From a virus: a DNA stretch of 21,983 nucleotides. Shown here piece by piece: positions 3,085 through 21,983 of the stretch (positions are counted from its first letter, which is position 1; the number at the start of each line of letters is the position of its first letter). Location: positions 1-21,983 of IMG/VR virus record IMGVR_UViG_3300009001_000106. One strand, written 5' to 3'. The notes under the pieces are model-generated. The model searched no databases. It saw only the letters and a list, made by a program, of their open reading frames with translations, and was not told the origin of the DNA. Made by a program: the position numbers and the translations under genes.

Positions 3085-4746
3085 ATGGCTTCTAAGAAAA
3101 AGTTATTACAAGCTGCATCAGGTGTATCTACAGGTATTCCAGGTGCATGGGACTTAGCCTATGCTTTTCCAGACGATCCTAATACTTATGTAACTTATGG
3201 TATGGGAATTAATGATTCTTCTAGCGGAGTTTTTGCTGAAGGTTCAAATCCTTTTACAGTATTCTTTAAACCTGACGGTACAAAGATGTATGTCATTATC
3301 AGCGCAGGTGCTTCAAGTGGTGATAACGACACAGTATTCCAATACTCTCTGAGTACGGCTTGGGATGTGACTACAAAAAGTTACGATAGTAAAAAGTTTT
3401 CTTTTGCATTACAAGAGACTAGCCCTTGGGGGTTGTGGTTTAAACCAGATGGTACTAAGATGTATATGTCTGGCTCTTTAAACGATACTCTTTTTCAGTA
3501 TTCTTTATCTACTGCTTGGGATGTATCTACAGCATCTTATGATAGTGTATCTGTAGTTTTGTCAAGTTTTGCAGGGGATATAATAGCCACCGCTACAAGC
3601 ATCTTTTTCAAGGATGATGGTACTGAATTTTATGTAATAGACCCTGGTAATGATGATGTCCACCATTTTACTTTATCTACTGCTTGGGATTTAACTGCAA
3701 GCAACTGGACAAGACAAACAGACTTTTATGTTGGGGGTGAAGAATCTTCTCCTGCAGGTATAGCCCTTAGTCCTGACGGTAAGTATATGACAATACTTGG
3801 ATACGCAGGAGATGATTTTACTAGCTTTAAATTAAGTACTGCATGGGACACATCAACTGCTACTCTTATAAACGGTAGCCAAGTTTATGTTGGAGGTCTT
3901 GAAACTTCGCCAAGAAGTTTTGTTTGGGGGGAAGATGGTCGTGCTCTTTTCTATACTGGAACTGGTAGTGATCAAGTTCGAAAGTTATATGTGGGTGGAT
4001 GGTCTTTCCTTTCTGAAGGAACAGCCCCAAGAGACATAGCTTTCAATGATGATGGCACTATAATGTACATCCTAGATGATGCAGGGAATGACATTAACTA
4101 TTATGACTTAACAATTCCTTATGATACGTCAGAAGATAATGTTGTTGTAGATGGTGCAAAAAGATTCAGTCAGAATGAAAGTGTACCCAACGCACTTGAC
4201 TTTAAAGCAGATGGAACAAGTCTTTACGTTAGTACTGAAAACAATATTACACAATATGATATGAGTACTGCATGGGATACATCGACTGCTTCAACAGGTA
4301 GTACTTTTAATCATACACCAACTGGAGCCACGGGTATGAGATTTAGACCTGATGGCACTCAGGTGTTTGTAAATTATCAAGCTGATGATACTGTAAAAGC
4401 TTTAAATTTAAGTACTGCTTGGGATATATCAACTGCTTCATATGCAACAGGACAATCTTTTGATTATTCAACTCAATCTGCAAATGCTTGGGGAATAGAG
4501 TTTAAACCTGATGGTAAGAAATTATACATTCATTCTGAACAAGATGACAAGATATATCAGTATAGTTTAAGCACCGCATGGGATTTAACTACTGTTAGTT
4601 ATGACAATACTTTTTATGACGCACGAACAAAGATAGGTAATGTATCGCCACATGGGATCAGGTTTAAACCAGATGGAACAAAGTTGTTTTATCTTGATAG
4701 TAATGAAGATAGAGTCATAAGAATTGGTGTTGAAGATACATCGTAA
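3085..4746 (+). CDS. Beta-propeller receptor-binding/fibre protein
   Basis: 553 residues from ATG 3085, with AGGAG at 3071-3075. The protein is almost wholly made of repeats of about 53 residues. Each has a [FVL]-x-x-D-G-[TKR]-x-[LMF]-[YF] strand motif followed by a 'Y-x-L-S-T-A-W-D-x-[ST]-T-A' turn. I count ten such DG motifs (Asp at about 64, 122, 178, 231, 284, 323, 376, 423, 476, 530). One interval is shortened to 39 residues (284-323), where the STAWD turn has decayed. This is a beta-propeller type common in marine phages and bacteria. The N-terminal 20 residues may attach it to the virion. Codon use differs sharply from neighbours (one CTA among 31 leucine codons). The receptor-binding role is inferred from location before a tail chaperone. 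Confidence 0.65.
   Translation: MASKKKLLQAASGVSTGIPGAWDLAYAFPDDPNTYVTYGMGINDSSSGVFAEGSNPFTVFFKPDGTKMYVIISAGASSGDNDTVFQYSLSTAWDVTTKSYDSKKFSFALQETSPWGLWFKPDGTKMYMSGSLNDTLFQYSLSTAWDVSTASYDSVSVVLSSFAGDIIATATSIFFKDDGTEFYVIDPGNDDVHHFTLSTAWDLTASNWTRQTDFYVGGEESSPAGIALSPDGKYMTILGYAGDDFTSFKLSTAWDTSTATLINGSQVYVGGLETSPRSFVWGEDGRALFYTGTGSDQVRKLYVGGWSFLSEGTAPRDIAFNDDGTIMYILDDAGNDINYYDLTIPYDTSEDNVVVDGAKRFSQNESVPNALDFKADGTSLYVSTENNITQYDMSTAWDTSTASTGSTFNHTPTGATGMRFRPDGTQVFVNYQADDTVKALNLSTAWDISTASYATGQSFDYSTQSANAWGIEFKPDGKKLYIHSEQDDKIYQYSLSTAWDLTTVSYDNTFYDARTKIGNVSPHGIRFKPDGTKLFYLDSNEDRVIRIGVEDTS
3265..4692 (+). repeat. Ten propeller-blade repeats of about 160 bases
   Basis: Ten in-frame repeat units encode the DG-strand motif; most also encode STAWD. 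Some copies stay alike in DNA: 'agtactgcatgggat' or a one-base variant appears near 3837, 4264 and 4412. Unit spacing is about 140-175 bases except for one of about 117. Confidence 0.75.
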
Positions 4747-4757
4747 GGAGAACTGTT

Positions 4758-5231
4758 ATGTATTATGTAAAAATAGAAAATGATGTAGTTGCACAGTATC
4801 CTTATTCTGTAGCAAACTTAAAAAGTGATAATCCTAATACTAGCTTTCCTGCTAGTGTTTCGGATACCGTTCTTGAAAGATACGGCGTACACCCTGTTTC
4901 TTTTGAAGCTCAACCGTCTTATGATCCTGCTACAGAAAGAGTACAGCATAGTACTTCACCAGTTTTAAAAGATGGTACTTGGACTATTACAAAAACTGTT
5001 GTTGCTTTAAATGATGAACAAATTGCAAGTTATGCAAATCATGTAAGCGGTAAGAATAGAGAAAAACGTGATACTCTATTAGCTAATACTGATTGGACTC
5101 AGATGAATGATAGTCCGTTGTCTAATGAAGACAAGACTGCATGGGCTACGTACCGTCAAGAACTACGTGACATCAGTGATCTAGATGCATGGCCTCACTT
5201 AGCAGACGAGGACTGGCCTGTAGAACCATAA
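4758..5231 (+). CDS. Tail fibre assembly chaperone-like protein
   Basis: 157 residues from ATG 4758, 11 bases after the propeller gene, with AAGGAG at 4745-4750. Residues 99-157 match the phage tail-assembly chaperone (Phage_tail_APC) pattern: 'K-R-D-x-L-L-A-N-T-D-W-T-Q' (103-115), 'K-T-A-W-A-T-Y-R-Q-E-L-R-D-I' (126-139) and a terminal 'W-P-V-E-P'. The N-terminal half is variable and matches nothing I recognise. Genes of this type usually follow the fibre whose folding or attachment they aid, so the propeller protein is the likely partner. Leucine codons hint at mosaicism: the four in the N-terminal half contain no CTA, whereas the C-terminal domain uses it three times in six. Confidence 0.7.
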   Translation: MYYVKIENDVVAQYPYSVANLKSDNPNTSFPASVSDTVLERYGVHPVSFEAQPSYDPATERVQHSTSPVLKDGTWTITKTVVALNDEQIASYANHVSGKNREKRDTLLANTDWTQMNDSPLSNEDKTAWATYRQELRDISDLDAWPHLADEDWPVEP

Positions 5232-12389: not shown

Positions 12390-12690
12390 TTTCGAGATTG
12401 ATTACGACAACAAAACCTTAAAGGCGACATGCACAGAAAAACTAAGCACTCCTATCCATGTAAGAAAATCACCAGATGGCTTTATATTCTTCGAGGTCCA
12501 TGTAGAAAAAGGCAAGGTTCCAGGCGATTTAAGTGGAAAGTACACATCTCTAGATAACGCTAAGAAAGCTATACAAGTATACCTAAATAATATTACTCCT
12601 TCTAAGGCTGTTCGCAGAGAGGCTTTCGGTAAGGACTACGAGGAGCGTAAGAAACGAAATGCCACAGAGTCTAACGCAAAGGGTAGTTAA
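12376..12690 (+). CDS. Unrecognised 104-aa protein between adaptor and nozzle
   Basis: Starts at ATG 12376, overlapping the adaptor by 14 bases, and ends overlapping the nozzle gene by 32 bases. It fills the gap exactly, which supports its reality, although its ribosome site (AAAAGG) is modest. The first 55 residues look like a small beta domain ('F-E-I-D-Y-D-N-K-T-L-K-A-T', 'H-V-R-K-S-P-D-G-F-I-F-F-E-V-H'). After 'G-K-Y-T-S-L-D-N-A-K-K-A-I-Q-V-Y-L' comes a very basic helical tail (R/K-rich, about 74-97). I do not recognise a family with known function. Genes of similar size and tail occur at this place in related phages as far as I recall, so a tail-assembly role is likely but unproven. Confidence 0.7.
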   Translation: MVDVDFEIDYDNKTLKATCTEKLSTPIHVRKSPDGFIFFEVHVEKGKVPGDLSGKYTSLDNAKKAIQVYLNNITPSKAVRREAFGKDYEERKKRNATESNAKGS

Positions 12691-14827
12691 CACATTTGTT
12701 AAAGGTTTGATTACTGAGGCAGGTGAACTTACTTTCCCACCAGATGCATCAGTAGATGAACTAAACTGTGACCTTCGTCGTGACGGTTCTCGCCGTAGAC
12801 GTAAAGGTGCAGCTAAAGAAACTAACTTCGAACTGTCTAGTTTTACTGTAGCAGATGATGCTATTACTACAACAGGTGTGTGGTACAACGTAGGTGGTCA
12901 GTCAGGTCTAGAGTTTCTAGTATTTCAGAATGGCTCTACCCTTTACTTCTTCAATAAGTCTGGTGCTCCTTTCTCAGCTAACATTGAAACAGCTACAGTA
13001 AACTTACTTACTTATGAAGTAGCAGGTAGTGTTGGTGCATCACAGGCTAAGTGTTCATTCACTTCTCTTAAAGGTGCATTGATTGTAGTATCAGAAGCTA
13101 TTGATCCTATCTACATTGAACGTGATAACGTAGCAGAAACACTTACAGTTACTCAGATTGATTTCCGTGTACGTGACTTTGATTGGCAGGGTGACACTAC
13201 AGAGTATGATGAATCTAAAGCAAGCCCTTCAGATGAACGTAAGTATGATACACAGAACGCAGGGTGGGTAGCTCCTAATGGTGACTCTGCATTAACTGCC
13301 TATCAATCTGCAAACTCTAGTAAATATCCACCTCTAACACATGCTTGGTATTCAGGTAAAGATGCTACAGGTGCATTCTCTGCAAGTGAATGGGCAGAGA
13401 TTTATAGCGGTAATAGTCTTACAGGCAACGGTCACTACATTCTAGACTTTTTCAGTAAAGATCGTGCTACTGCATCAGGTATCTCAGGACTTACTACAGA
13501 GACTGAATCTAGTAGATTTAAATCAGTAGCCACCTTTGCAGGTCGTGCATTCTACGCAGGTCTTGACAGTACTACAAACACAGACATCATTCTGTTCAGT
13601 CAGTTGATTGATAACTTCTATCAGTTAGGTGAGTGTCTACAACAGAACGATCCTACATCAGAGTTAATCAGTGATGTTCTTGATACTGATGGCGGTACAA
13701 TACGGATAGCAGGTGCTGTTGGTATCAAAGTACTTTATGTAATTGATGCTAGTTTGTATATCTTTGCAGAGAACGGTGTGTGGCGTATTGAAGGTATTGA
13801 TGGTGTCTTTAGTCCTACAGCGTTTGCTATTAAAAAGATTACAGATGTAGGTATTGTTAGTCAAGGTAGTTTTGTTATTGCTGATGGAACTCCTCTGTGG
13901 TGGAGTAAGAATGGTATTCACACATTGCAATTTGATGCAACAAGTGGTCGCCCTGTAGAAAGTAACTTGACTATTTCTACTATTCAAGCTTATTGGGATC
14001 GTATTCCTAACGAGTCTAAGAATAAACTTACGTCTATCTTTGATCCTGTAAACAAACGTGCTTACTGGGCATGGCCTGATGACGGTGAAACAGTAGAGTC
14101 TAAAGTAAATAATATTCTAGTTCTTGATGTACCTCTAAAAGCATTCTATCCTTGGTATGTTGAAGATGAAACTACAAACACAGATGCTATTATTGGTATA
14201 GAGTTCTTCTCTGGCTTTGGTGCTGCAGCGTCTACGCTTGATGTTGTAACTAGCGCAGGGGATGACGTTATAACTTCTGCAGGAGATGATGTTGTCTCTA
14301 TTCAGAACTTAGCAACTACAGGTTCACCTGCAATCATCTTGATCATACGTGATGGTGATACAAACAAAATGACTATGGGTTCCTTCACAGGAGATGACTT
14401 CTTAGATTGGGGTACTACAAACTATAGTTCTTACGCAGAAGCAGGTTATGACTTTATGGGTGACCTACTCTTGAAGAAGACTGCACCCTACATTACAACT
14501 TACATGCGCTTAACTGAGACTGCATGGGAAGGTAATGAAACTGATGGATACGCCCCAGATAAACCATCCTCTATGTTAGTATCTGCATTCTGGGACTTCA
14601 AGAATACTACTTCAAGTAACCCTCAACAAGCCTATAGATTTAAATCAATGCCTGTTGTAGATTCAGGAAACCTCTTGAACTTTGATTACCCTGAGTCAGT
14701 AATCACTACTCGAATGAAAGTACGTGGTCGTGGTCGATCAATGCGTATCAAGTTCGAAAGTGAACAAGGTAAGGACTTCGTTCTACTTGGATACTCAGTT
14801 CTTGGTGGAGTTAACCAAACACACTAA
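12659..14827 (+). CDS. Tail nozzle (T7 gp12-like tail tubular protein B)
   Basis: 722 residues from ATG 12659, with AGGAG at 12641-12645 inside the upstream gene. The nozzle is a hexameric tube at the tail end that holds the fibres and gates DNA exit. Diagnostic N terminus: 'Q-R-V-V-N-T-F-V-K-G-L-I-T-E-A-G' then 'L-T-F-P-P-D-A-S-V-D-E-L-N-C' (about 7-36), a block I know from marine tail tubular B proteins, followed by 'R-R-D-G-S-R-R-R-R-K-G'. Later parts read as beta-propeller-like strands, for example 'F-A-G-R-A-F-Y-A-G-L', 'V-W-R-I-E-G' and 'W-W-S-K-N-G-I-H'. Residues 528-547 hold a tandem octapeptide (DVVTSAGD, DVITSAGD) like that in the lectin fibre. T7 gp12 is 794 residues. Confidence 0.9.
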   Translation: MPQSLTQRVVNTFVKGLITEAGELTFPPDASVDELNCDLRRDGSRRRRKGAAKETNFELSSFTVADDAITTTGVWYNVGGQSGLEFLVFQNGSTLYFFNKSGAPFSANIETATVNLLTYEVAGSVGASQAKCSFTSLKGALIVVSEAIDPIYIERDNVAETLTVTQIDFRVRDFDWQGDTTEYDESKASPSDERKYDTQNAGWVAPNGDSALTAYQSANSSKYPPLTHAWYSGKDATGAFSASEWAEIYSGNSLTGNGHYILDFFSKDRATASGISGLTTETESSRFKSVATFAGRAFYAGLDSTTNTDIILFSQLIDNFYQLGECLQQNDPTSELISDVLDTDGGTIRIAGAVGIKVLYVIDASLYIFAENGVWRIEGIDGVFSPTAFAIKKITDVGIVSQGSFVIADGTPLWWSKNGIHTLQFDATSGRPVESNLTISTIQAYWDRIPNESKNKLTSIFDPVNKRAYWAWPDDGETVESKVNNILVLDVPLKAFYPWYVEDETTNTDAIIGIEFFSGFGAAASTLDVVTSAGDDVITSAGDDVVSIQNLATTGSPAIILIIRDGDTNKMTMGSFTGDDFLDWGTTNYSSYAEAGYDFMGDLLLKKTAPYITTYMRLTETAWEGNETDGYAPDKPSSMLVSAFWDFKNTTSSNPQQAYRFKSMPVVDSGNLLNFDYPESVITTRMKVRGRGRSMRIKFESEQGKDFVLLGYSVLGGVNQTH
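14240..14299 (+). repeat. Octapeptide tandem repeat in the nozzle gene
   Basis: Two 24-base units encode DVVTSAGD and DVITSAGD, followed by the beginning of a third (DVVS). Several third-position differences separate the copies, so the duplication is not very recent or is kept at the protein level. Confidence 0.8.
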
Positions 14828-14840
14828 CTTAGGAGACTTC

Positions 14841-15299
14841 ATGTCTTATAAAATACGTAACGCTAACCAAAGCGATACCTTCGATATTGTACTTCTTTAT
14901 AAACAATTCTCTAAAGAAATACCTCACAAAGCTTTTTCTAAAGTAAACACAAACAAGACAGTTGAGCTTATCTCTAATCTTATTCAGTATGAAAACGGTT
15001 TTGTACATGTAGCTACTTTTAATGATGAAGTCGTAGGTGTTCTTGCTGCATTTTTATCAGAGTTACCAGTAAATGATTTTAAAATGTGTCAAGAGATTAT
15101 ATTCTTCGTAGAACCTAAACACCGAAATGGTAAAACATCTTCTAAATTAATAGATGCTTACGTAGAGTGGTCTAAAAGTATCGGATGTAACTTTGTAAGA
15201 CTTTCTTCTTTAGACCCTGTTCTTAATAGTAAAGCAGGGGTTTTGTTTAAACGTAAAGGTTTTTTAGAAACCGAAACAGCATATGTAAAGGAATTATAA
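14841..15299 (+). CDS. GNAT-family acetyltransferase-like protein (T7 gp13 position)
   Basis: 152 residues using ATG 14841, chosen because AGGAGA (14831-14836) lies five bases upstream; the frame is open further up but runs into the nozzle gene. GNAT features: N-terminal 'Y-K-I-R-N-A-N-Q-S-D' strand; 'V-V-G-V-L-A-A-F-L-S-E-L' (64-75); motif A region 'I-F-F-V-E-P-K-H-R-N-G-K-T-S-S-K-L-I' (87-104); and motif B 'L-F-K-R-K-G-F' (135-141). The acetyl-CoA loop is degenerate, R-N-G-K-T-S where R-G-x-G-x-G is usual. It lies between nozzle and gp14-like genes, as T7 gp13 does, so it may act in virion assembly rather than catalysis. All 14 leucines avoid CTA, hinting at acquisition from elsewhere. It could also be an active modifier of host or phage proteins. 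Confidence 0.75.
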   Translation: MSYKIRNANQSDTFDIVLLYKQFSKEIPHKAFSKVNTNKTVELISNLIQYENGFVHVATFNDEVVGVLAAFLSELPVNDFKMCQEIIFFVEPKHRNGKTSSKLIDAYVEWSKSIGCNFVRLSSLDPVLNSKAGVLFKRKGFLETETAYVKEL

Positions 15300-15300
15300 A

Positions 15301-15978
15301 ATGGCTATATTTACTGCGATTGGTGCAGTCGTTGGTGCTCTTGCAGGTGCTGCCGTTGCTACGACTGCTGTAGCAGGTGCTATTGGTTTAACTACTACGG
15401 CTGCTGTTATCGGTGGTGCTGTTATTGGTGGACTTGTAGGTAGTAAAGTAGATAAGAACATTGAAGCTGCAAAACAACAACAAGCTGCTGCTGCTGCTAC
15501 TGCTACTCAGATAGCAACAATTCAAGAAGAAGTTACAGATATATCTGCAGCACAAGTAGAAATACAAAAACAAACTATACAAACCCAAGCAGAACAAGAT
15601 AGGTTAGCTGTACGTAGACAACGACGAAGTGCTATCCGACAAGCTCAGATCGCAAGAGCACGTCAACAGAATATCGCACAAGCTGCAGGGGCTGCAGGAT
15701 CATCTGCCGTATCTGGTGGTGCTGCGTCTATTGGTTCTAACTTGTCGGCTGCTCTTGGTTACTCTACACAACAGTCTGGTTTATCTGAACAGATTACACA
15801 AGCTAACCAAAGGACTGCAGACCTACAAGGTCAGATCAATGCGCTATACGGTCAAGCTAACGTCCTACAAGGTCAGCAACAACTAGCTCTATCACAAGCT
15901 TCATTGTATCAGAGCCGTGCATCTAGCATTATGGGTATTGCAAGCACTGCATTCCAAGTGGGCGCAGGTATTATCTAA
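15301..15978 (+). CDS. Internal virion protein (T7 gp14-like)
   Basis: 225 residues from ATG 15301, one base after the GNAT stop. Residues about 5-50 are a long Ala/Gly hydrophobic segment with glycine-zipper spacing ('G-A-V-V-G-A-L-A-G-A-A', 'A-V-I-G-G-A-V-I-G-G-L-V-G'), suited to entering a membrane. Residues about 55-120 are a Gln/Ala-rich helix likely to be a coiled coil, with a basic patch 'R-R-Q-R-R-S-A-I-R'. The C-terminal half is Gln/Ala/Ser-rich helix. T7 gp14 (196 residues) is ejected into the outer membrane as the first part of the DNA channel. The same size, hydrophobic part and position before the giant internal proteins support that role here. Confidence 0.75.
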   Translation: MAIFTAIGAVVGALAGAAVATTAVAGAIGLTTTAAVIGGAVIGGLVGSKVDKNIEAAKQQQAAAAATATQIATIQEEVTDISAAQVEIQKQTIQTQAEQDRLAVRRQRRSAIRQAQIARARQQNIAQAAGAAGSSAVSGGAASIGSNLSAALGYSTQQSGLSEQITQANQRTADLQGQINALYGQANVLQGQQQLALSQASLYQSRASSIMGIASTAFQVGAGII

Positions 15979-15989
15979 GGGAAACCTAA

Positions 15990-18900
15990 ATGGAAAACTT
16001 AAATCTTACGTTCATTGGTGAGGACAATCATCAATTCCTTGATGAATCCCAAGAACAACAAGACACGTCTATTAAGACAGACAGAGAACAAGATGAAGTT
16101 ATCCTAACCACAGGTAAGCCTCATACGGATGTTAAACTAGCCAAGCAGGACTTCTTAGAACAGAACCGTCCTCTTGAGAGATATGCTGCAGAGCGTCTAG
16201 AATATCTAGATGCAGACCCAGTAGAGTTTCAAGAGAAGATTGAGAGCTATCGCAAGAAAGAACAACAGTTTGTTGAGACTGATCAGTATTGGTACGAACA
16301 AGCATTGGCTCTAAAAGACTCTGAGATAAACGATACTGACACACGTATTGCAACTAACAACCGTATTGCTCAAGAAATTCTAGACACTTACATTGCACGA
16401 GAGGAGACAGGTGCTATCGATACAGTCTTAGACTTCGGGTCTATGGCCTTACGTGAGTTTGTTGTAGCACCTTACACCTTCATTCGAAAAGATGAGCTAG
16501 AAACACTTGGTAATGAAATCCTACAGAATAAAATTACCATGTCTTCTAAAGAGTTTCGTGAGTGGTTTACTGGATTCACAGCAGACTATATGAGACTAGG
16601 TCCACGTGAGGATAATGCATGGCGTTTAGGTTCTCTAATAGAGATGGAGAGAAACAACGGTTTCAGAACTTTCGGTGATAAACTTCTTACTAGAGGTTTT
16701 GCTGCACTAGATGCTGCAGGTGTCGGTAGTCTAGCAGTTAAGGGTGGTCTAAAACTAGCTACTAAAACTGCACGTCCACGTACACTTGTAGGTCGTGTAG
16801 CTGCTAATGAAGGACCAGAGGCTGCTGCAGATGTAGCAGAGGCAACACTAGCTAAACGTCTAGACCCTGAAGTTACTAATGATATTGGCCCTTCATCTTT
16901 AAACCCTCATGCTGACATTGCAAAGGTTTCTGAGTCTCGTGTAAGCCGTATCTTGCAAGAAAATAAAATTATTCAAGATATACAAAAGTACTATAAGAAC
17001 AATGCTATTGGTAAAGTTCTACCCGAAGAGACTGTTAAAAGACTTGCCTCAGAAACAGCAGCACTTATTGGTAAGAAGTTCGGAAACCCTATCTACAATG
17101 CAGATCATGTAGGTGATGATCTAGGTAACTACACTGTTACTGTACAGTTCGGACGTGCAACAGATGGTCAACCCTACAAAGCTACATCTAAAGGTAACCC
17201 ATCAGTAGGTGCTAAAGAAGCTGCGAAGCGTTCAGGTGGTGAACTTATACCTGTAGATGATGGTAAAGGTTTCGTAATTCAGTTACGTGAGAACCTAAAC
17301 CTAGCTAAAGAGATCAAGGGTATTGATGACATCTTTGAAGGTGCAATGGCCCTTGAACGTGGCACTGCTCGTAACATGATCAACGATGTCTTAGGCGGTG
17401 TAGGTCGTTTTATAAGTAATGCTTCTGAGCGTGGTCTGCGTAACACAACAGAACTAGCACAACTTGGTGAAGGTGCGGCTGCAGCTATTGGTAAGTTAGT
17501 AAAAGAAACTGCAAGACCTATTGAAGCCTTAGATAACACTGACCGTGCAGCACTGGCATTCATTACACGTGAGCTTCGAGATAACCCTAAAAAGTCTGCT
17601 AGACGTGGATGGTATAGTGTAGAAGAGTTCTCTAATTACTATGTGGAGTTCACAAAACGAGAATTTACACAAGGTGTTCAAGAAGCATACGAAGCTCTTG
17701 TAGAAATTAGCGATGCAGCGTACCTTCTACAGGCAAGTAACATTATGCAACGGTATGTCCAGAAGGGCTACCGTGCTGTTAAATTGCCTAACGGATTCCG
17801 TGTACCTGCAAAGAATATAGGTAAAGCATCTATTCCTGAGAACGCAAGAATCTTAGATGTTGTAGATAATCAGGTTACATACAAAGAGTTTGTAGACCCT
17901 AAGACAGATATATGGCGTTTAGATAAAACATATGAGGGTGTCGAGTATGTAATTCGTCCTAAGAATGTTGATGCGCTAGACCCATCAGATGTACTAGGTT
18001 ACAATGCAGGTGGTCCTCGTACAAACCCTAACGCTCGTTGGTTTGTTGTAGCAGGTGACTACACTAAAGGTCGTCTTAAAACTTGGTTATCTGCATTTAC
18101 TGAAGAAGACGCTATAAAAGCTGTTAACGAGATTAACACTATTCTCGCTAATAGAGGTAAGGCTAACATAGATGACATTGTAAAAGAGAATAACTCTTGG
18201 AATCCAGATGTACAAACCTTTGATGGCTTTGAGTTCGAAGCTAAAAGTAATGGGTGGAGTTTAGACAACATCTCTGAGTTAAAAGTTAAAGAACGTAACG
18301 TACCTTTGTCTTCTGCAGATGGGGACGATGACGTATTTAATGGTATGGCTGCAGGTGATTTCATTGAGAATGATATGCGCCGTAGTGATAGCGTACTACC
18401 TCATTTCGGTGGTGTAAAAAATGTAAACTTCGATCCTACTGCTAATGTTGTAGCAGGTATTAATAGTGCTATCAACGAATTTAGCTACAGAGCATACACT
18501 GTTAATTCTATGGTTTCTTGGGTCAAGAGAGCTAAGAGAGTTTCAGGTATTAAACTACCTAGCAATGTTCCTGAAAATGATTTCTACAATCAATTCATGG
18601 GTGCTCAGTTTACAGGGACAGGGGCAGAAGTAACTCGTATGAAAGAGTTATGGACTATTGATCGTCGCCGTATGAGTGTTAAACGTGCAGACGAAATCGC
18701 CATGATTAATCTTGGTAAGTCTGTAGCTAACTTTGTGTATAAAGGTTCACGTGAAATACAAAAATTACGAGGCAAAGAAAAACCTAAAGGAGTAGAGATC
18801 GACTTTAATGATCCTACTAATTTTATGCTTAAAGTAGGATTCTTGTCTAAGTTCGGATTCTTAAACCCTAAACAAGTAATTGTTCAAGCCCACCATACTA

Positions 18901-20372
18901 CTTCTATTATGGCTATCTCTCCTACTCACGGTCCTCGTGGGGCAGGTTTAGCACTACTTATGCGTGGTATGTACATATGGCCTCAAATGGCAGAGAAGGG
19001 TTTGTCAAGGATTGCTAAACGATACAACCTTAACGAAGATCAAGTAAAAGAGATCATGGAATATGTACGTTCATCTGGACGTGCTGACTTGGATACTGAG
19101 ATCGCTGAACTTAACACAGGTTATGGTCGTGGTATCTCTGGTTTTGCAGGTGAAGACTACACACCTAGTAAACTAGCTAGTACATGGGCAGCTACACGTA
19201 AGACTGCATCTAAAGGTATGGAGTTAGGTCTTCTACCTTTCCGTGAAGGTGACCGCCTAGCACGTATGACAGGTACTTATACAGCTATCCTTGAGTACAT
19301 GGCGAAGAACCCAGGTGCGTCTATCCTGACTGAACAGGCTCGTAGGCAGATTGCTCGTCGTGATCATGCTTTGAACTTTCATATGTCGTCTATCTCTAAC
19401 TCACCTTGGCAGCAAGGTGTACTACGCCTACCATCACAATGGCTTTCTCATACCATTAGATCAATGGAAATTTTATTTAATGGTAAAGAATTTACTGTAG
19501 CTGAACGTGCAAGATTGGGGGCTGTACTTGTACCTATGTATGGTGCTGCAGGTTTCGGGTTTGCTAATGCTGCAGATTACATTGCAGAGAAACTAAACAT
19601 ATCTACAGACCACGAGTTCTTCACATTTATGAAATGGGGTTTGATTGATGGTTTAACTGACGTTCTTATGACAGACGAGAAAGGCCGTGTAGGTACAGGT
19701 CTAACAACAAGCCTTGCACCTATGGGTCAGGTGCGTGAAACATTACGTATGATTCAAGAGGGTCAGTTCTTAGAAGTTTTAGGTGGTCCTTCTACTCAGA
19801 TTGGTGGAGACATCATATCTTCTTTGTGGAATGCTATTATAAATCTTACAGACGGAAATGGCACACTTATGAAAGAGGATGTTATTAAAACCTTCCGTAA
19901 CATCACGACACTAGATAACGCTGCTATAGCCCTTGGTATTAAAAACAATGGCTACTATCGTAGTAAGACAGGTGCTAGAGTTCCTGGTGAAATGTCTATT
20001 ACTGAGGCTTGGATGATTGCTTTAACAGGTATTAAACCATTAAAGGTACAAGAGTTCTACTCAGTCAAGACTAATATTTATAATGATGACAGAAAATTAC
20101 GTAAAGAACGTCGAGACATTAACCGACTAGCAGATAAAGCTCATACTATGATTAAGTCAGGTGATCCACAACAATACGAAGAAGGCTTCAAACTACTAGA
20201 AGCCTTGAAGCTACGTATTGATTTAAGTGGTGCATCAGAGATAAATAAAATGAGTTTACGTAAATCATTGGTAACTCCACTACAAGATGAACTACCTCAA
20301 CTAATTCTTAAACTACGTAAGAATGATAAGACTGCTATGGCTGAACGTCTAGCTGCAACACTAGGAAACTAA
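15990..20372 (+). CDS. Giant internal virion/ejection protein (gp15/gp16-like)
   Basis: 1460 residues from ATG 15990, with AAGGGA upstream. Such proteins are stored in the capsid core and ejected to carry DNA across the envelope. The N-terminal 150 residues are charged helix ('F-L-E-Q-N-R-P-L-E-R-Y-A-A-E-R-L'). A conserved-looking C-terminal block includes 'P-F-R-E-G-D-R-L-A-R-M-T-G' (about 1083-1095) and 'N-F-H-M-S-S-I-S-N-S-P-W-Q-Q-G-V-L-R-L-P' (about 1129-1148), followed by hydrophobic segments with 'Y-G-A-A-G-F-G-F-A-N-A-A'. I recognise this block from large internal proteins of marine podoviruses. I see no lytic transglycosylase motif at the N terminus, unlike T7 gp16 (1318 residues). 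Whether it corresponds to gp15 or gp16 cannot be settled from sequence alone. Confidence 0.8.
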   Translation: MENLNLTFIGEDNHQFLDESQEQQDTSIKTDREQDEVILTTGKPHTDVKLAKQDFLEQNRPLERYAAERLEYLDADPVEFQEKIESYRKKEQQFVETDQYWYEQALALKDSEINDTDTRIATNNRIAQEILDTYIAREETGAIDTVLDFGSMALREFVVAPYTFIRKDELETLGNEILQNKITMSSKEFREWFTGFTADYMRLGPREDNAWRLGSLIEMERNNGFRTFGDKLLTRGFAALDAAGVGSLAVKGGLKLATKTARPRTLVGRVAANEGPEAAADVAEATLAKRLDPEVTNDIGPSSLNPHADIAKVSESRVSRILQENKIIQDIQKYYKNNAIGKVLPEETVKRLASETAALIGKKFGNPIYNADHVGDDLGNYTVTVQFGRATDGQPYKATSKGNPSVGAKEAAKRSGGELIPVDDGKGFVIQLRENLNLAKEIKGIDDIFEGAMALERGTARNMINDVLGGVGRFISNASERGLRNTTELAQLGEGAAAAIGKLVKETARPIEALDNTDRAALAFITRELRDNPKKSARRGWYSVEEFSNYYVEFTKREFTQGVQEAYEALVEISDAAYLLQASNIMQRYVQKGYRAVKLPNGFRVPAKNIGKASIPENARILDVVDNQVTYKEFVDPKTDIWRLDKTYEGVEYVIRPKNVDALDPSDVLGYNAGGPRTNPNARWFVVAGDYTKGRLKTWLSAFTEEDAIKAVNEINTILANRGKANIDDIVKENNSWNPDVQTFDGFEFEAKSNGWSLDNISELKVKERNVPLSSADGDDDVFNGMAAGDFIENDMRRSDSVLPHFGGVKNVNFDPTANVVAGINSAINEFSYRAYTVNSMVSWVKRAKRVSGIKLPSNVPENDFYNQFMGAQFTGTGAEVTRMKELWTIDRRRMSVKRADEIAMINLGKSVANFVYKGSREIQKLRGKEKPKGVEIDFNDPTNFMLKVGFLSKFGFLNPKQVIVQAHHTTSIMAISPTHGPRGAGLALLMRGMYIWPQMAEKGLSRIAKRYNLNEDQVKEIMEYVRSSGRADLDTEIAELNTGYGRGISGFAGEDYTPSKLASTWAATRKTASKGMELGLLPFREGDRLARMTGTYTAILEYMAKNPGASILTEQARRQIARRDHALNFHMSSISNSPWQQGVLRLPSQWLSHTIRSMEILFNGKEFTVAERARLGAVLVPMYGAAGFGFANAADYIAEKLNISTDHEFFTFMKWGLIDGLTDVLMTDEKGRVGTGLTTSLAPMGQVRETLRMIQEGQFLEVLGGPSTQIGGDIISSLWNAIINLTDGNGTLMKEDVIKTFRNITTLDNAAIALGIKNNGYYRSKTGARVPGEMSITEAWMIALTGIKPLKVQEFYSVKTNIYNDDRKLRKERRDINRLADKAHTMIKSGDPQQYEEGFKLLEALKLRIDLSGASEINKMSLRKSLVTPLQDELPQLILKLRKNDKTAMAERLAATLGN

Positions 20373-20373
20373 T

Positions 20374-21983
20374 ATGGCACAAGATATATTTGCACCTAAA
20401 ACATCCTTCGATATAGGCTATGAACGTCCTCAACAGGGTGTAGTAGACAACACTGAAAAGATTAAAGCAGACTTTCAAGCAATGTCTCTAGGTGCTCAAG
20501 CCAAGGCAGTGCAGGGACAGGCTGCTCTTGAACGTGCTGAAGCAGGTCTTATTCAATCTGCTATTGGTATTGCAGGGGATGCTTATACTATTAATATTAA
20601 AGGCAGGGAGAAAGGCGCAGTAGATGCTCTTTTCAATGAGATAAAAAATATAGAATCTCAAGACTCACAAAAGCCCATGCCTTTTGAAACAAAGAAGTCT
20701 AAGTATAATAATGCTATAATGAAAGCTGCTTCAGAGATACCAGGTGGTTACTCAACATTAGCTAAACACAACACTGCTATCAAAGCAGCAACTGGCATGG
20801 ACATTGCTAGTATAGCTAAGTCTACTGAGCAAGAGCAGTACGAACAAATGCAACAGAACCCTGTGTTTCAGACTGCATACCTTGCTTCTAAAGTAACTCA
20901 GCCTAACCTTTCTGAAGAAGATAGATTCATATACGCTCAGAACGAAGCCGCAAAGACTGCTGCAGCAGAGCTTATGCAAACAACTGTTAAGACGGAAGAC
21001 TTATCTAGGTACTATACTGATACTAAACGTACAGTAGAGCAACGACTAACCAACTTAGATACTGCTATTGTTGCATCTATTCAGTTAAAGCGTGATACTG
21101 GTCAGCCTATCACAACACTTGATATTGAAAGTCTTGAAGTACGAGTAGCAGAGGCTCAACGTCTTGTAGATGTCTTAATCCCTAACACTGTTCCTGAAGA
21201 GGAAAGAAGTCAGGTAGATGAATACTTTACAAACCTAAATGATTTTCTTACTCAGATGAAAGAAAGTAAAGACCCTGATAGAATTGCTACAGGTGTTGCC
21301 TCTTATCTAGCTCAGACAGGGCAGACTATGGGTGAGATTCTAGCAGGTGCTAAGATTGCTAAAGCTGAGATACTTTCATCACAAGCAGGTGTTGAAATAT
21401 TTAAGGTAATCACAACTAAGTTGAGTGACGGTTCTTCTACTGCTGCTCTAGCTGTTGGTGGAGATTTAGGTTCTATTTATGACGCTCTTGTTGAAGCACG
21501 TCAGGGTGAGGTTATTGGACCTAACACTATTATGACTCAAGAAGAGTTGAACATAGTGTTTGATACCAGAAACAAGACTCCTAAAGATATGATGGATGAA
21601 CGTGCTGCAGGACTAGAATTAATTAAGTCTCTAGACGTTGGTGAACTTGGCACTGATCAAGGTAAGAGACAACTAGTATCAGGTATTGCATCTGTAGTAA
21701 AGTCTCTTAATAACCTTGATATACAACAAACAGGTTCTAAGTTAAGTGAGCTAGTAATCGACTCAGGTCTTATTGATAAGATTAAGTTCTTAGATAACTA
21801 CGACAAGGCTACTGCTAACCAGATTCGCACACTACTGAATAGTGTTGTAACAAATAACCTACGTTTCTCTGAACTTAAAATAAGTTCTATTGAGACAGAT
21901 GGTAAAGGGTACACAAACCGTAACCCTGGACTTGTATGGGACGAAGCAGAGCAGGTATACTACGCCACTGATAAAGAGTATAT
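20374..21983 (+). CDS. Second large internal virion protein, 3'-truncated by window end
   Basis: An ATG at 20374, one base after the previous stop, opens a frame that continues without a stop to the last base, giving at least 536 residues. Composition is Ala/Gln/Glu/Lys-rich and almost entirely helical, with few aromatics: N-terminal 'F-A-P-K-T-S-F-D-I-G-Y-E-R-P-Q-Q-G-V', then a long helix with 'A-K-A-V-Q-G-Q-A-A-L-E-R-A-E-A-G', and later 'D-L-S-R-Y-Y-T-D-T-K-R-T-V-E-Q-R-L'. No enzyme motif was seen in the visible part. Place and composition fit the remaining member of the gp15/gp16 ejection pair; a peptidoglycan hydrolase domain could still lie beyond the window. No other annotation of this stretch is plausible on either strand. 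Confidence 0.75.
   Translation, partial: MAQDIFAPKTSFDIGYERPQQGVVDNTEKIKADFQAMSLGAQAKAVQGQAALERAEAGLIQSAIGIAGDAYTINIKGREKGAVDALFNEIKNIESQDSQKPMPFETKKSKYNNAIMKAASEIPGGYSTLAKHNTAIKAATGMDIASIAKSTEQEQYEQMQQNPVFQTAYLASKVTQPNLSEEDRFIYAQNEAAKTAAAELMQTTVKTEDLSRYYTDTKRTVEQRLTNLDTAIVASIQLKRDTGQPITTLDIESLEVRVAEAQRLVDVLIPNTVPEEERSQVDEYFTNLNDFLTQMKESKDPDRIATGVASYLAQTGQTMGEILAGAKIAKAEILSSQAGVEIFKVITTKLSDGSSTAALAVGGDLGSIYDALVEARQGEVIGPNTIMTQEELNIVFDTRNKTPKDMMDERAAGLELIKSLDVGELGTDQGKRQLVSGIASVVKSLNNLDIQQTGSKLSELVIDSGLIDKIKFLDNYDKATANQIRTLLNSVVTNNLRFSELKISSIETDGKGYTNRNPGLVWDEAEQVYYATDKEY

Follow-up and report, generated by a model that had tools for sequence, protein, structure and literature searches.

A GNAT-fold protein with a conserved variant cofactor loop, and allele exchange at its locus, in the tail and ejection gene block of a cobavirus-related phage

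The GNAT proteins encoded by cobaviruses have been read in print in two ways, as regulators of host metabolism or as assembly proteins. The gene was described beside those for the internal virion proteins in passages of Bischoff et al. 2019 (PMC6775973), where it was proposed that the product could correspond to gp13 of phage T7 and have a role in virion morphogenesis, whereas text in Zhang et al. 2019 (PMC6918029) suggests that the GNAT of CRP-4 and CRP-5 regulates host metabolism. T7 gp13 (PF11090, PHROG 308) lies between gp12 and gp14, and annotations class it with the internal virion or scaffold-type proteins. A T7-like Pseudomonas phage has, at the gp13 place, a protein tabled as an acetyltransferase via a PDB match (table in PMC10142737), and in the virion mass-spectrometry passages on the T7-like phage phiPsa17 (PMC4517105) the gp13 homologue is unnamed among the proteins detected. 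Another phage GNAT, Rac (gp28 of LUZ19, PHROG 3986), is assigned to a different PHROG from the protein considered here and lies at another genome place; its part in the cleavage of RNA polymerase alpha has been tested, according to the text of PMC7552054 that deals with it.

The gene examined here is the known, annotated GNAT of Cobavirinae and Zobellviridae, represented by gp41 of CRP-4, gp41 of CRP-5, ORF38 of ICBM2 and pc40 of SIO1, all of which share its family (PHROG 1249) and its slot. It was found in a stretch of viral DNA of 21,983 nt (the window), whose nearest named relatives are Roseobacter phages CRP-4 and CRP-5 and Lentibacter phage ICBM2 (Zobellviridae, Cobavirinae); an IMG/VR contig carries GNAT and tail proteins identical to those of the window. 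The gene occupies positions 14841–15299 of the plus strand, from an ATG at 14841 to a TAA ending at 15299, and encodes 152 aa. A ribosome-binding site (AGGAG) can be read in the sequence at 14831–14835 (plus strand), and the stretch around it is common to phages with differing GNAT alleles. Its closely spaced neighbors, all on the plus strand, are a gp12-like tail tubular B or tail appendage gene (12659–14827; PHROG 8094, E 9.7e-192), which serves below as the backbone marker, and a gp14-like gene for an internal virion protein B with a hydrophobic N-terminus (15301–15978; PHROG 8168, E 6.5e-7), the order being that of ICBM2 and ICBM1, where the counterpart is annotated as internal virion protein B. 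These are followed by the gene for a long, IVP-D-like internal virion protein of 1460 aa (15990–20372), recognized by tblastn and by a position as in ICBM2, after which comes a 536-aa ORF (20374–21981) that is open at the window end. The place of T7 gp13, given to the gene in the original prediction, is therefore upheld, the order gp12-like, GNAT, gp14-like being the same as gp12, gp13, gp14 in T7.

The GNAT fold, also part of that prediction, is confirmed by matches to Pfam Acetyltransf_1 (PF00583; 28.6 bits against a cut-off of 20.7, E 1.9e-6, residues 37–136) and to the PHROG 1249 'acetyltransferase' profile (E 2.4e-25, residues 2–151 on profile positions 7–156 of 180), and by a confident AlphaFold2 model built from 56 sequences (pLDDT 90.9, pTM 0.86). 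The top structural matches of this model, by Foldseek and VIA-align, are acetyltransferases. Those closest by Z are acetyl-CoA-bound or active enzymes that match almost the full length of the predicted structure, headed by the acetyl-CoA-bound Ta0374 (PDB 3f0a; Z 18.4, 2.3 Å over 144 residues). T7 gp13 is also predicted to adopt a GNAT fold: its AlphaFold2 model (pLDDT 93.0; best Foldseek E 5.7e-5) aligns with the GNAT domain 4u5y at Z 12.2 (2.5 Å over 127 residues), and its ten best VIA rows are acetyltransferases. The two proteins nevertheless belong to different Pfam and PHROG families. Neither PF11090 nor PHROG 308 is among the profile matches of the window GNAT, and hhalign of T7 gp13 against the window family gave probabilities of 0.1% with a single sequence and 3.3% with a seven-sequence alignment, so that no sequence relation was found. 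The earlier view that the protein takes the place of T7 gp13, a GNAT-like assembly protein, thus holds for position and for the predicted fold of gp13, but not for sequence relationship. Because the models of both proteins are GNAT folds, the slot would be GNAT-like in both the T7-like and the Zobellviridae groups, and common descent is one option for this predicted sharing of a fold.

The pyrophosphate-binding loop of GNAT enzymes typically, but not universally, follows the consensus Q/R-x-x-G-x-G/A. The equivalent loop of the window protein does read R-N-G-K-T-S, as had been stated, at residues 95–100 (15123–15140, plus strand), between the strand at 81–90 and the helix at 97–113 of the model. 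It departs from the consensus in that position 1 is kept while position 4 is Lys and position 6 is Ser, and the protein is placed in the GNAT superfamily on the strength of its fold and family model rather than of the loop motif. Among 84 aligned relatives (the window, 71 of 80 viral-contig loci and 12 named phages), position 1 is Arg in every one and position 4 is Gly in none. Position 6 is S, A or G in all 60 distinct Zobellviridae-type sequences, in which E26, E145, Y148 and K150 are also invariant. Within the 39 distinct Veravirus-type sequences H94, R95, G97, K102 and L103 do not vary, T99 is present in 38, and of the 147 stretches of six residues just 11 surpass residues 95–100 in conservation. 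CRP-4, CRP-5 and ICBM2, with 55–57% identity to the window GNAT, share its loop type (H-R-N-G-K/R-T-S/A). R-N-G-K-T-S is the norm for the clade of close relatives, and so gives no sign of private decay. The eight within-class pairs of class I GNAT alleles that were tried have dN/dS values of 0.02–0.19.

A wider range of loops is seen in the same slot of other Zobellviridae, in a comparison that excluded rows L204 and L206. One PHROG 1249 member, in contig L217, has the canonical loop RNAGVG, and the loops of Vibrio phage 1.015.O, 1.264.O and KZY1-k141_1938105 are R-G-N-G-V-F, R-K-G-R-L-G and R-N-A-S-V-G, respectively. The position-4 Gly is also absent from gp27 of K1E and other SP6-like/Colwellvirinae proteins of PHROG 1249, whose gene lies between those for DNA ligase and portal, whereas that of the window is in the tail/ejection block. 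The loop of Rac, R-N-S-G-V-V, likewise starts with R-N but has G at position 4; PHROG 3986 is not listed for the window protein, Rac matches PHROG 1249 at E 5e-4, and hhalign gives the pair 19%. In the T7 gp13 family the loop is unconserved, although the sequence of T7 itself spells R-L-S-G-K-A near the start of the helix, and by eye no other row of the two gp13 alignments spells the consensus there; since its own sequence fits the consensus, T7 gp13 is not called dead. Judged from these alignments, the family loop drifts around a fixed Arg, with the position-4 Gly absent through most of the family. The conservation of the loop argues against a recent loss of function, without proving catalysis, and the suggestion that the protein is a formerly catalytic and now dead enzyme was not established, given a variant loop conserved across the clade and a canonical one in the same slot.

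How firmly the slot is held by a GNAT was surveyed independently of the GNAT itself, through the tail protein. This recovered 68 contigs, of which 13 with a truncated tail gene were left out and 55 were examined; 51 of these, many of them fragments, run on for 470 nt or more past the end of the tail gene. A PHROG 1249-type GNAT occupies the slot in 49 of the 51, directly after the tail gene in 44, overlapping its end in four, and recognized by profile only in L217. In L203 (4657–4667) about 10 nt separate the tail gene from the gp14-like gene, leaving the slot empty, although on this 9,018-base fragment a GNAT could be located elsewhere. L207 has a 117-aa ORF in the slot (4538–4891) without a family match; by eye it looked as if it might be a GNAT remnant, but it had no library match as such and was not accepted as one. 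With a GNAT in 49 of 51 contigs and none there in L203, the slot GNAT is near-universal yet not strictly required at this place.

The window GNAT differs from other cobavirus GNATs in being a divergent allele on a CRP-4-like backbone, while sister backbones carry another allele. Its tail protein is nearest to those of L049, L052, L059 and L067 (93%), but its GNAT is only 55% identical to theirs and nearest to that of L022 (63%), the closest GNATs found being 63–64% identical; compared with L049, the tail proteins share 93% and the GNATs 55% identity. The grouping of the window with L049, L052, L059 and L067 is rejected by the GNAT data (AU p 1.2e-4), the clades for these tests having been chosen after the trees were viewed. 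At synonymous sites the GNAT gene differs from that of L049 about four-fold more than the tail gene does (dS 1.14 and 0.29), so fast protein change alone is an insufficient explanation. The divergent block has a left edge in the region of the GNAT start codon (14836–14870, plus strand), where identity to L049 is 100% over the 60 nt ahead of that codon, 71% over the first 60 nt after it and down to 48% at +120, as well as a right edge inside the gp14-like gene (15441–15620, plus strand), identity to L049 and L052 being back to 93–96% from about +780. The exchange would therefore have carried over, with the GNAT, the first part of the gp14-like gene that follows it. The 120 nt leading up to the GNAT start codon (14721–14840) are 98–100% identical to L049 and L052, where the tail gene averages about 90%, and this stretch might anchor recombination or have a regulatory role.

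Similar discordance is found on other backbones. L022 and L056 share 98% of tail protein but 60% of GNAT sequence (dS 0.07 and 1.54), and a GNAT clade of L022 with L058, which is identical to L056 in both proteins, is rejected (AU p 2e-31). L021 and L038 share 93% and 61%, and a GNAT clade of L021 with L030, L038, L039 and L042 is also rejected (p 4e-53), while that of L081 with its backbone group is not (AU p 0.084). Twenty-three of the 27 CRP-4-like tree rows carry one allele class, whose representatives are 78–100% identical even with tail proteins 66–67% identical (values that upstream-extended ORFs may overstate); alleles outside that class occur in the window, L021, L022 and L081, and the allele type of L021, L022 and L166 occurs on three backbones. 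Since the same exchange is seen on other backbones, it is a feature of the GNAT locus, passing from phage to phage. That the window GNAT simply diverged fast in place, with no replacement, is very unlikely: its terminal branch is long (0.68, which also weakens its exact placement) and its dN/dS against L049 (0.31) exceeds the class I range, but the synonymous divergence, the sharp break at the start codon and the recurrence of exchange elsewhere all stand against it. Taken from tree discordance, breakpoint and dS, the earlier notion of a recent replacement is supported, the resident allele of the clade having given way, through recombination, to one from a distant part of the same family. In the literature searched, which lacks most subscription journals, no earlier account of exchange between GNAT alleles turned up.

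That notion had leaned on codon usage, which by itself is insufficient. The absence of CTA is real, with none among 14 leucines compared with 149 among the 470 leucines of the remaining 19 ORFs tested (Fisher p 0.007, uncorrected), and of the 18 ORFs that have eight or more leucines this gene alone is without CTA. A comparison with 20 distinct class I GNAT genes (CTA for 110 of 349 leucines) likewise gives p 0.007; CTA is similarly scarce in the GNAT genes of L025 (0/13) and L021 (1/15). Over the whole gene, codon usage is in keeping with that of the window (z +1.37), and the GC content of 31.4%, the lowest of 20 ORFs, goes with a GC3 of 0.21 like that of the neighbors, low GC being common to relatives' GNAT genes relative to their own tail genes. 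Given how many codons, in 20 genes, could have shown such a lack, the codon argument for replacement is weak and cannot carry the claim; at most, the lack of CTA arrived with the exchanged allele.

Three pairs (window/L049, L022/L056, and L080 or L081/L048) have a block of low identity that reaches into the gp14-like gene, whereas in L021/L055 the GNAT is exchanged and the gp14-like N-terminus remains 85% identical. Across 25 phages, GNAT distances correlate with those of the N-terminal 60 aa of the gp14-like protein at r 0.35 and with those of the tail protein at r 0.18, values uncorrected for kinship. With L021/L055 contrary and the correlation modest, co-inheritance of the GNAT with the gp14-like N-terminus was not accepted as an established finding. 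The window and L059 share 93% of tail protein and 58% of gp14-like protein sequence, and 43–63% of DNA in the compared part of the long internal gene. Among close relatives the gp14-like and long internal proteins are mosaic too, and allele exchange extends to the entire ejection block.

As to function, the protein may well still be an acetyltransferase using acyl-CoA and acting while virion proteins are made, the most likely of the readings, held at roughly even probability. It would bind acyl-CoA through the variant loop, which retains R95 and, at position 100, a small residue, and has K98 at the usual Gly site; from gene position, it would act in late infection, and it would probably acetylate a phage or host protein during production of the tail and ejection proteins. 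CoA binding, catalysis and substrate are inferred; speaking for them are the closeness of the model to acetyl-CoA-bound or active enzymes, the constrained loop, the four residues invariant in all 60 sequences, the canonical loop of L217 and the constancy of the slot. The Lys at loop position 4 could block the pyrophosphate, and conservation of the pocket region seems compatible with catalysis or with another use of the pocket. The main rival, which has a smaller but appreciable probability, is a pseudoenzyme, a GNAT fold that no longer catalyzes and would instead help to assemble or scaffold the tail/ejection complex, as has been proposed for T7 gp13. This was the functional idea of the original prediction and is the published one, Bischoff et al. 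2019 having already proposed the gp13 correspondence and a morphogenesis role. It is a live option because T7 gp13, with the same slot and predicted fold, has an unconserved family loop and its structural annotation. The slot adjoins internal virion proteins as in T7, the position-4 Gly is missing from all 84 aligned relatives, and the phiPsa17 virion proteins named in those passages (PMC4517105) fit an unpackaged assembly factor, yet the loop and other conserved residues are strongly constrained, a canonical loop occurs elsewhere in the same slot, and a sequence relation to T7 gp13 was not found.

Next in order of likelihood is a host-directed enzyme like Rac, which would acetylate host proteins and so shift transcription or metabolism, its place in the virion operon being incidental. 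Rac needs its predicted acetyl-CoA pocket for RNA polymerase alpha cleavage, according to the relevant text of PMC7552054; PHROG 1249 genes of SP6-like/Colwellvirinae, between ligase and portal, are near the place of Rac in LUZ19; and the host-metabolism role suggested for CRP-4 and CRP-5 (PMC6918029) points the same way. This reading is nonetheless quite unlikely, as the virion slot is kept in 49 of 51 Zobellviridae-type contigs and Rac is of another PHROG, with the profile and hhalign values given above.

A broader possibility, unlikely as a whole but not negligible, is that in T7-like and Zobellviridae podophages the gp13 slot has long been occupied by GNATs, in which loops range from canonical (L217) through R-N-G-K-T-S to unconserved (T7 gp13 family), and that in cobaviruses it is an exchange locus whose alleles move with the gp14-like N-terminus because the GNAT would modify or chaperone it. 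With opinions on what gene 13-type proteins do still divided, the predicted GNAT fold of gp13, the relative with a canonical loop in the same slot and the natural allele swaps offer direct tests of whether the slot needs acetyl-CoA and whether an allele must match its gp14-like neighbor. If the slot protein is an active enzyme, the label 'structural relic' would be wrong; if it is not, the metabolic-gene label would be.
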